NCBI RefSeq assembly: GCF_023115465.1
Contig: NZ_CP096034.1
Coordinates: forward strand, 806,001-870,000
DNA: 64,000 nucleotides
Origin: Gottfriedia acidiceleris
Lineage (GTDB): Bacteria > Bacillota > Bacilli > Bacillales > Bacillaceae_G
Direction of reading: 5' to 3'
Positions 41,358-54,543 of the stretch are shown in pieces. Below the pieces are notes generated by a model. It was not told the DNA's origin and made no database searches. It saw nothing but the letters and a program-made list of their open reading frames with translations. A program made the position numbers and the translations under genes. Every line of letters begins with the position of its first letter. Position 1 is the stretch's first letter.

Positions 41358-41382
41358 AGCAGTGTAATCATTCATAAACATT

Positions 41383-41577
41383 ACTCGTATATGCTCAGTA
41401 ATATGGTCTGAGCGTTTCTACCTGGTTCCCAACGAAAGAACTAGACTACGGGTTAAAGTATAATTGGTTTATTTTTTGTAACCAATAATAATGATTAGCA
41501 TTTATTGCTGATCTATACTTTAACTTTCGTAGGTCTAGAAGGTAGAAATATTCTACTTTTTCTAGACCATTTTTTTT
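41383..41577 (+). promoter_or_regulatory. guanine-class purine riboswitch with intrinsic terminator
   Basis: Aptamer: P1 ACTCGTA (41383-41389) with TACGGGT (41447-41453); P2 GCTCAG (41393-41398) with CTGAGC (41408-41413), loop containing ATATGG; J2/3 GTTTCTACC (41414-41422); P3 TGGTTC (41423-41428) with GAACTA (41438-41443); J3/1 GAC. The base just before the 3' P1 strand is C41446, the guanine-selecting position (U in adenine switches). Expression platform: GTTAAAGTATA (41452-41462) can pair with TATACTTTAAC (41514-41524), extended by AGAC-TACG with CGTA-GTCT, forming an antiterminator that competes with P1 and with the terminator stem (41532-41568, T-run to 41577). This predicts OFF regulation by guanine or hypoxanthine. 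Confidence 0.95.
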
Positions 41578-52572: not shown

Positions 52573-52602
52573 TTGACAGAGTTATGACATAACCCCTATA
52601 AT
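52573..52602 (+). promoter_or_regulatory. sigma-A promoter for T-box leader
   Basis: TTGACA (52573-52578), 18-bp spacer, TATAAT (52597-52602), both perfect hexamers. Confidence 0.88.
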
Positions 52603-52656
52603 ACAAAACATATTAAAAAAGAAACAAGCTACTAATGGTAGATTAATATAGTTTTA

Positions 52657-52907
52657 AGCAATGAAGGGAATTTAAGTAGTACTTATCTCAATGTAATAGA
52701 GAGCTGATGGTTGGTGGAAATCAGTACAAAGATAAGGATGAATTTCGGTCCTGGAGCTATTTTTTTCGAAGTAAGGTTTATCTTTACTGAGGGGAAAACG
52801 GTCAAATTTGATCGTTATCAAATTCTTAAGAGGCAGAATATTTCTGCAACTAGGGTGGTACCGCGAATAATTCGTCCCTACTGATACAATCAGTAGGGAC
52901 TTTTTTA
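52657..52907 (+). promoter_or_regulatory. T-box riboswitch 1, specifier best read as TTC (Phe)
   Basis: Stem I with AG-bulge region AGAGAGCTGATGG, upper stem CTTATCT/AGATAAG, loop-E GAA (52740-52742), then T and TTC (52744-52746) followed by a purine. The T-box core AGGGTGGTACCGCG is at 52852-52865 (UGGU pairs an ACCA tRNA end), and the terminator is GTCCCTACTGA (52874-52884) with TCAGTAGGGAC (52890-52900) plus T-run. Reading the frame one base earlier gives TTT, also Phe. Uncharged tRNA would stabilise the antiterminator. Confidence 0.93.
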
Positions 52908-52931
52908 TTAGTTTAAAACTGAATATAGAAA

Positions 52932-53180
52932 ATGCAATGAAGGGAATACAGTAATGTTTGTTTCACTGTTTAAGAGAGCTGGTGGATGGTGTGAATCAGT
53001 ACAAAAATAAGCATGAATTACAATCCTGGAGCTTCTTTTTCGAAGTAAAGGTCGACATTTACTTTGAAAAAGACGGTCATCGATCGTTAAATAAAACAAG
53101 TGGCAGATTTAATTCTGCAATTAGGGTGGTACCACGGTGAAAATCGTCCCTGTCGTTAGTGGCAGGGGCGATTTTTTTTT
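52932..53180 (+). promoter_or_regulatory. T-box riboswitch 2, specifier best read as TAC (Tyr)
   Basis: Second complete leader directly after the first. Stem I with GAGAGCTGGTGGATGG, loop-E GAA at 53015-53017, T, then TAC (53019-53021) followed by A. Core AGGGTGGTACCACGG begins at 53123, terminator AAATCGTCCCTGTC (53141-53154) with GCAGGGGCGATTT (53162-53174) and T-run to 53180. The one-base-earlier reading would be TTA (Leu), less usual because specifiers nearly always end in C. In series with T-box 1, both tRNAs must be uncharged for read-through. Confidence 0.92.
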
Positions 53181-53214
53181 AATAAAATTAAAAACTAGAA
53201 AGAGGAGATAGAAA

Positions 53215-54543
53215 ATGGAATTACAAAAAAATTTACTACCAAGACATATCCGTTTCATGGCACTCGGTGGAGCAATTGGCACTGGTATTTTTAAAGGAAC
53301 ATCAGAAACTGTATCGATTGCAGGACCTGCAGTTATTTTTTCATATTTGTTTGCTGGATTATTACTTCTTGTTGTGATGAGTGCGATTGCGGAAATGGCT
53401 ATTGCGTTTCCAGGTTTGAATATGAAAGGATTTATACGTAAAGCGTTTGGTACAAGAGTGTCTTTCGTAATTGGTTGGTTGTACTGCTTTATGTGGTTAG
53501 TTGTTTGTGTTATTGAAGTAATCGCAGCCGGCAGTTTTCTACAATACTGGTTTCCTTCAATGTCGTTATGGTCTTTAAGTTTTATTAGTGCTATTTTTAT
53601 TGTGGCTGTTAATTTTATGAATGTGAAACGATATGGTGAAATAGAATTCTGGTTTGCAGGAATTAAAATAACAATGATTGTTTTATTTATTGCGTTAGGC
53701 GCAGGAATTTTATTTGGAATTATTCCAAGTGATCATAGTGGTTATGTTCATAATTATGTTCAGCATAAAGGATTTTCCCCACATGGCTGGTCAGGAGTAT
53801 TTTCTGCTTTATTAATCGTCATTTTTTCTTACGGTGGTTCAGAACTAATTGGATTGACTTTAACAGAAACAAAAGATGCTGAAAAAGTAATACCAAAAGT
53901 TATAAAAGGGGTTATTTGGAGAATTGTTTTATTCTACACACTTCCAATTCTGATTATTTGTGGATTAATTCCATGGAATGAAATTGGTAATCAGGAAAGT
54001 CCATTTGTTCAAGTTTTATCAACAGTAGGTTTTCAAGGTTCAGCTCATATTATGAACTTTGTATTGATTACGGCGGTATTATCTGCTGCAAATTCAGGTA
54101 TTTATGGCTGTACTCGTATGATGTATTCGTTAGCAACTGAGGGAGAAGCGCCAAAGGTTTTTGCAAAAATTTCTAAAAATGGTGTACCGATTTATACTGT
54201 TATTGTAAGTGCAATTATTTTGATTGGGGGCACTTTTGTAGCTTATTTTTCTCCAGATCGCGTATTCGGTTATTTAATGGCAATCCCAGGATTTACAGTT
54301 TCTTTAGTATGGATCAGCATTTGTTTAGCACAATTAAAGCTTCGTAAAACTTATACTAAGATGCCACACTTTAAAGTATGGGGATTTCCGTACGTAACAT
54401 CATTTACAGTAATTGCATTAGGTATGAGCTGTATAGCATTTGCATTCAATGAACAGAATAGATTAAGTATTTTTGTATGTTTAGGAATGTTAGTTGTATT
54501 AATTTTATGTTCATTTATAAAGGGCAAAAAACAAACTCAATAA
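53215..54543 (+). CDS. amino-acid permease (APC/AAT family, YvbW-like)
   Basis: 442 residues, twelve helices; the N-terminus LLPRHIRFMALGGAIGTGIF is the AAT-family signature, with SYGGSELIGLTLTET and AANSGIYGCTRMMYSLA further on. Resembles B. subtilis YvbW, which I recall as T-box-controlled. Imports amino acids by proton symport. Its two T-box leaders point to an aromatic amino acid (Phe/Tyr) substrate, an inference from the specifiers only. AGAGGAG precedes the ATG. Confidence 0.9.
   Translation: MELQKNLLPRHIRFMALGGAIGTGIFKGTSETVSIAGPAVIFSYLFAGLLLLVVMSAIAEMAIAFPGLNMKGFIRKAFGTRVSFVIGWLYCFMWLVVCVIEVIAAGSFLQYWFPSMSLWSLSFISAIFIVAVNFMNVKRYGEIEFWFAGIKITMIVLFIALGAGILFGIIPSDHSGYVHNYVQHKGFSPHGWSGVFSALLIVIFSYGGSELIGLTLTETKDAEKVIPKVIKGVIWRIVLFYTLPILIICGLIPWNEIGNQESPFVQVLSTVGFQGSAHIMNFVLITAVLSAANSGIYGCTRMMYSLATEGEAPKVFAKISKNGVPIYTVIVSAIILIGGTFVAYFSPDRVFGYLMAIPGFTVSLVWISICLAQLKLRKTYTKMPHFKVWGFPYVTSFTVIALGMSCIAFAFNEQNRLSIFVCLGMLVVLILCSFIKGKKQTQ

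Follow-up and report, generated by a model that had tools for sequence, protein, structure and literature searches.

What does it mean for an amino acid permease gene to be preceded by two complete T-box leaders that appear to call for two different tRNAs? Such a locus lies in the window, a stretch of 64,000 nucleotides of the Gottfriedia acidiceleris genome, which comprises 4.69 Mb in one contig. Tandem T-boxes are prominent in Bacillota according to a wide survey of these elements (PMC12452182). Homotypic tandem leaders, such as those of trpE and other genes of Bacillota, resemble the leader described here in that a single operon is preceded by two or three complete T-boxes. In the same genome, a trpE-type leader (L019/L020, with TGG twice, read by eye) and the phenylalanine hydroxylase leader (Tyr/Tyr) carry boxes for the same amino acid, whereas the permease leader reads Phe and then Tyr. 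The explanation favored here, which is held with good confidence, is that the serial Phe and Tyr T-boxes act in an AND-like manner, that box 2 was derived from a Phe/Phe tandem, and that the permease is probably an importer of both amino acids.

All elements of the locus lie on the forward strand. A sigma-A type promoter at positions 52573–52602 (TTGACA-18-TATAAT) agrees with the consensus in 12 of 12 positions, and both hexamers are present in 12 of 12 Gottfriedia orthologs. A cmscan search with the Rfam model RF00230, whose gathering score is 93, places T-box leader 1 at 52652–52882 (143.9 bits, E 3.6e-32) and T-box leader 2 at 52928–53154 (157.4 bits, E 1.3e-35). Both matches cover model positions 1–219 of 219, and the two boxes are thus full-length members of this family, arranged serially behind one promoter as a tandem leader; they share 170 of 224 aligned bases. 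Antiterminator 1 (52852–52880, from a fold of 52851–52882) overlaps intrinsic terminator 1 (52874–52900), and antiterminator 2 (53122–53152, from a fold of 53121–53155) overlaps intrinsic terminator 2 (53139–53176). The terminators, located by hairpin scan and folding, are stable, with −19.8 kcal/mol (z −8.2) for the first and −24.4 kcal/mol (z −7.0) for the second. The overlaps make antiterminator and terminator mutually exclusive in both boxes, with the antiterminator hairpins alone (−7.2 and −8.1 kcal/mol) being no more stable than shuffled sequences, which were equally stable in 58/200 and 62/200 cases. The first-pass annotation had described two complete leaders in series behind one promoter, each with its own terminator, and the RF00230 matches, the 12/12 promoter and the two hairpins bear this out. 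The permease gene follows at 53215–54543 and encodes 442 amino acids. Elsewhere in the window, a purine riboswitch aptamer (RF00167, 78.5 bits) is located at 41365–41468.

A different gate would result if an unrecognized promoter behind box 1 let box 2 also act alone, which would bring the permease closer to control by Tyr. The site that could be cited here is a weak 9-of-12 promoter-like sequence at 53159–53188, which overlaps terminator 2 and whose position would bypass both boxes. No promoter-like site was found between box 1 and box 2 at the threshold of the scan, and the scanned region holds 5 promoter-like sites, fewer than the shuffle mean of 9.7. Moreover, the spacer is poorly conserved, with 1.1 changes per column, compared with 0.33 and 0.49 in the boxes and 1.5 in the upstream flank, as counted on a single topology taken from a 29-locus tree. 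An internal promoter is thus regarded as very improbable, and a single transcript through both boxes remains the preferred picture.

The next question is which codon each box presents. The specifier loops are GAA-T-TTC-G at 52740–52747 in box 1 and GAA-T-TAC-A at 53015–53022 in box 2. In the Rfam alignment, the codon comes after GAA and one spacer base, which gives TTC (Phe, followed by G) at 52744–52746 and TAC (Tyr, followed by A) at 53019–53021. Synthetase leaders of the same genome provide a control, in which the expected amino acid was read in six of six cases (serS TCC, pheS TTC, tyrS TAC, leuS CTC, valS GTC and asnS AAC); these leaders were picked from about 12 look-alikes and read by eye with zero or one spacer base. 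In orthologs of the permease leader, the spacer position ahead of the codon holds T, A or C, whereas every codon reads TTC or TAC. In the TBDB database, UUC represents 0.99 of Phe specifiers and UAC 0.99 of Tyr specifiers (PMC7778990).

A frame one base earlier would turn the pair into TTT (Phe) and TTA (Leu), and nothing beyond the ambiguity of the frame recommends it. Since the spacer base varies between T, A and C, this frame would give ATT or CTT in orthologs. It is also contradicted by the T_C pattern, which all 12 Gottfriedia orthologs keep unchanged, and by the rarity of UUU and UUA, each of which makes up 0.01 of the specifiers of its own amino acid in TBDB (PMC7778990). The TTT/TTA pair, which the first-pass annotation had named as an outcome that would refute its reading, is therefore scarcely credible. 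In effect, the Phe and Tyr specifiers proposed in the first-pass annotation are confirmed by the Rfam alignment, the synthetase leaders, the ortholog columns and TBDB, and the covariance-model search with specifier alignment that it had suggested as a check returned two full-length matches with the codons TTC and TAC.

Both specifiers correspond to anticodons that exist in the genome, as tRNA-Phe (GAA) and tRNA-Tyr (GTA) genes are present. Two copies of each tRNA end in A-CCA (discriminator A), which matches the UGGU bulge found in the antiterminators of both boxes; the tRNA genes were sought by an anticodon-arm pattern, and further copies may exist. The leader in the window is thus a heterotypic tandem, in which the two boxes read different amino acids. 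A sequencing error behind the mixed specifiers was considered and rejected, since the mixed state occurs in 7 of 12 genus genomes.

On this basis, a mechanism can be proposed. One transcript, starting behind the promoter, would carry both transcriptional T-box riboswitches in series. Read-through at box 1 would require uncharged tRNA-Phe, paired at UUC and, by its NCCA end, at the UGGU bulge, and read-through at box 2 would likewise require uncharged tRNA-Tyr at UAC. Without the matching uncharged tRNA, each strong terminator would halt transcription. The T-box mechanism and the serial layout together imply that two terminators would have to be passed, each released by a different uncharged tRNA, and permease expression would approximate the product of the two read-throughs, which is AND-like in the ideal case. 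Such a gate is plausible from the anatomy of the leader and its serial terminators, and leaky termination at either hairpin may make it graded or dominated by one box.

The genus Gottfriedia allows this arrangement to be followed among close relatives. All 13 genomes of the genus contain the permease or a 56%-identical relative, and 12 of them contain an ortholog (88–100% identity). Tandem T-boxes lie upstream of the permease in all 12 orthologs. The specifier pairs are Phe/Tyr in seven orthologs (window included), Phe/Phe in three and Tyr/Tyr in two; of the 24 individual boxes, 13 carry TTC, 11 carry TAC, and none carries anything else. In the stretch GAATT_C, six positions are invariant in 12/12 orthologs in both boxes, and variation occurs only at the middle base of the codon. 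Because the stretch is otherwise invariant and only TTC and TAC are seen, these alignments indicate that the specifier loop is under constraint, with change confined to the one base that distinguishes Phe from Tyr. A comparison with homologous loci had also been suggested as a check in the first-pass annotation, and its outcome is a tandem kept in 12 of 12 Gottfriedia orthologs and, over all orthologs read, a T_C that stays fixed while the preceding base varies.

The distribution of the specifiers over the ortholog tree requires at least two changes in box 1 and at least three in box 2, a result obtained in 1000 of 1000 bootstrap trees, the tree of 12 orthologs being poorly resolved inside the genus. 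Joining the two Tyr/Tyr species as one group is rejected (p 0.0002), and a group of L034 and L038 is rejected only at p 0.046. These repeated changes, together with the three Phe/Phe and two Tyr/Tyr species, lend weight to a different view, in which the tandem serves a steeper general response to a shortage of aromatic amino acids, the specifiers are nearly interchangeable because Phe and Tyr run short at the same time, and drift through an intermediate, rather than selection for an AND gate, accounts for the mixed state. A near-neutral intermediate is a serious rival because sister species are Phe/Phe or Tyr/Tyr, and cooperative action of double T-boxes, with a sharper response as its result, has been proposed (PMC9413887). 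In the group of eight species that includes the window, Phe stands first and Tyr second in seven, which speaks against free exchange, although the group itself has only moderate support (87/87, collapsed in the 12-ortholog tree). Metabolism is also relevant here. All 13 genomes of the genus contain a match to PF00351 (phenylalanine hydroxylase), and the genome of the window contains members of the prephenate dehydratase and prephenate dehydrogenase families, which suggests that it may make both Phe and Tyr. Such enzymes link the Phe and Tyr pools, a point in favor of near-interchangeable specifiers.

The leader of phenylalanine hydroxylase itself serves as a point of comparison within the same genomes. 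In the genome of the window it is a Tyr/Tyr tandem (L199, G000:C1:4324507-4325016), and the same pair recurs in all 12 genomes with a permease ortholog, which indicates that specifiers do not drift freely in every leader and argues against the interchangeable-specifier view. Taken with all of this evidence, that view is given nearly an even chance. The Phe/Phe and Tyr/Tyr orthologs do indicate that the mixed state is not essential. It is possible that a shortage of Tyr alone is met by the hydroxylase under its Tyr/Tyr control and that import is kept for joint shortage. The fullest form of the AND-gate reading, a natural two-tRNA gate for joint shortage with the hydroxylase answering Tyr shortage alone and with selection having rewired the inputs at least five times in the genus, is offered tentatively and may well go too far.

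The 13th genome of the genus, G003, shows a different arrangement. Two neighboring paralogs of the permease (L043 and L044, G003:C8:70512-74616) lie on one strand with four T-boxes in about 4 kb, the upstream copy under Phe/Phe and the downstream copy under Tyr/Tyr, and these duplicated permeases are likely a case of divided input. In the same genome, the hydroxylase is preceded by a triple Tyr T-box array (L186, G003:C18:700-3300), and the leader of a second hydroxylase (L200) gave no T-box match. Other triple Tyr arrays were observed before an NhaC-like gene (L181, G018:C2; named by eye only) and before a permease relative (L240, G396:C11), the latter read as two overlapping pairs. Tandem leaders of the aroF type (DAHP synthase/chorismate mutase, named by eye from likeness to L007) are Phe/Phe in G015 and Tyr/Tyr in G014 and G017 (L182, L183 and L184), with the second box of L182 read by eye as GAA-TAC without a spacer. 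Given these aroF-type leaders, specifier exchange may reach beyond the permease.

The origin of the tandem can be approached through relatives outside the genus. Five tandem orthologs were found there (L055–L058 and L095), all of them Phe/Phe; L061 and L062, which are more distant members of the family (53–56% identity), are Tyr/Tyr, and L059 and L060 (59–60% identity) have no T-box over the gathering score. Among the best 80 of 260 relatives (named), two upstream T-boxes over the gathering score were found at 14 loci, one at 8 and none at 58; several of these loci evidently come from the same species as unnamed ones, and the two sets overlap accordingly. The single boxes among these 80 loci read TTC in 8 of 8 cases. 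The 16 fetched loci L063–L078 lie outside the set scanned for T-boxes. In the leader tree, the first boxes of Gottfriedia, L055 and L095 cluster together, as do their second boxes, with moderate support (84/61 and 91/76). Since both kinds of box cluster across genera, the duplication seems to be older than the genus Gottfriedia. From the outgroups, Phe/Phe would be the ancestral state of the tandem; a Phe/Phe pair predating the genus could then have given rise to the mixed leader by one middle-base change, after which box 2 would read Tyr. In the same tree, the first boxes of Ectobacillus lie on the side of the second boxes, which counts against the favored explanation.

The leader tree also bears on whether both boxes matter. 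Six single boxes (L088, L091–L094 and L104; two named Neobacillus) group with the first boxes, and the single-box state looks like a loss of box 2. In principle, one box alone could be effective in the window as well, the other being a relic with a weak terminator, so that control would effectively depend on one amino acid. The relatives outside the genus with a single box of the first kind, or with none over the gathering score (L089 and L090), are what this idea can draw upon; in the window itself, both boxes are full length, conserved and equipped with stable terminators, and control by one box is judged unlikely. In L089 and L090, from Neobacillus-like genomes, no T-box was found upstream of the permease. 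Inspection by eye revealed, some 100 bases ahead of the permease start, a promoter directly followed by a hairpin that resembles a terminator and has a run of T, which is perhaps a relic of the leader. Both loci were kept in the 29-locus tree, from which the other T-box-less loci, named duplicates, L145 and L155 were left out.

A pattern survey across the order, covering 397 genomes, places the mixed leader in a broader context. The pattern was GAA-N-T(A/T)C-purine with a gap of 240–270, a form that other arrangements escape, and in 33 genomes it identified 47 tandem places of the Phe/Tyr type, two triple arrays being counted twice each. Five places are mixed, all of them this permease in Gottfriedia, and 42 are homotypic. 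The same pattern read backwards gave zero matches over the 397 genomes. The survey missed two known pairs, that of L042 and the mixed one of G002, and the likewise mixed G008 lay outside the sample. Of 19 further tandem arrays read among the matches listed and the hydroxylase leaders, none is mixed. The idea that mixed Phe/Tyr tandems are common was rejected, as 5 of 47 places are of this kind.

The permease itself belongs to the APC superfamily of amino acid permeases, with a PF00324 match of 326.4 bits against a cut-off of 24.6. None of the 25 NCBIfam families listed is matched above its cut-off, and the permease falls outside the AroP and PheP equivalogs, scoring 278.7 of 848 bits and 302.5 of 851 bits, respectively. 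The nearest PDB match is LysP (9eyd, E 3.8e-65), and neither the NCBIfam nor the PDB comparison fixes the substrate. Among the best 80 of 260 relatives, the named ones closest to the permease include those of Gottfriedia luciferensis (98% protein identity) and G. acidiceleris (96–97%). Judging from the T-boxes, the permease probably imports Phe and Tyr.

YvbW of B. subtilis is, like the permease of the window, under T-box control, and it differs in having a Leu T-box instead of a Phe/Tyr pair (PMC2494555). The first-pass annotation had taken YvbW as the closest relative and had suggested that its leucine specificity was switched in the present locus. This part finds no support, since a separate, 40%-identical paralog in the same genome (L022 and L045, G000:C1:573482-575087) has a single T-box of the Leu type, reading GAACTTG, which means Leu as either CTT or TTG. 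The same Leu-type GAACTTG was found in four of four scanned paralogs (10 were fetched; L048–L052 and L054 lie outside the scanned set). By its specifier, this paralog is a better candidate for the YvbW counterpart than the permease with the tandem. The switching actually seen, as read from the ortholog leaders, is between Phe and Tyr.

Several known systems share features with this leader. A mixed T-box pair is not new in kind, as the homoserine dehydrogenase gene of C. difficile (CD1580) is reported to have two distinct T-boxes that presumably bind two different tRNAs (PMC11477304). That case concerns a biosynthetic gene in another organism, and the account of it leaves the tRNAs unnamed and presents no ortholog series (PMC11477304). 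The tandem riboswitch composed of a T box and a ppGpp sensor has been described or predicted as an AND gate in which one leader combines two ON switches (PMC5912903, PMC9481103); its second input is ppGpp, whereas in the window it would be a second tRNA. The exchange of specifiers likewise has precedents. In the tyrS leader of B. subtilis, a UAC to UUC mutation switched the response from Tyr to Phe (PMC7430163), and this is the same base that varies among the orthologs. The tyrS mutant is a laboratory change in a single T-box, whereas the changes in Gottfriedia are natural, recurrent and located in tandem leaders. A one-base change that turns T-box specificity is also described in PMC2494555, where a Phe T-box before an NSS transporter of the B. 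cereus group is derived from a Tyr T-box. It is a natural, transporter-linked change, which differs from the present case in involving another transporter family and one inferred event. No paper joining Gottfriedia and T-boxes was found, and wording about mixed specificity was also unmatched, in a literature search that excludes the surveys of Vitreschak 2008 and Gutierrez-Preciado 2009, which may list mixed tandem T-boxes. As far as this search goes, two elements are new, namely a Phe/Tyr pair in front of a permease and inputs that were exchanged repeatedly between close orthologs.

In Gottfriedia, nature thus provides closely related leaders of the same permease with three sets of inputs, Phe/Phe, Phe/Tyr and Tyr/Tyr. 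This series allows one to ask whether tandem boxes multiply, cooperate or form an AND gate, and whether selection maintains the mixed gate. It represents a natural counterpart of the single-base change by which the specificity of tyrS was switched in the laboratory. A group of APC permeases without an assigned substrate would also become tied to Phe and Tyr. If the proposed gate is real, single-base changes within one genus would have rewired its inputs among the Phe/Phe, Phe/Tyr and Tyr/Tyr states.
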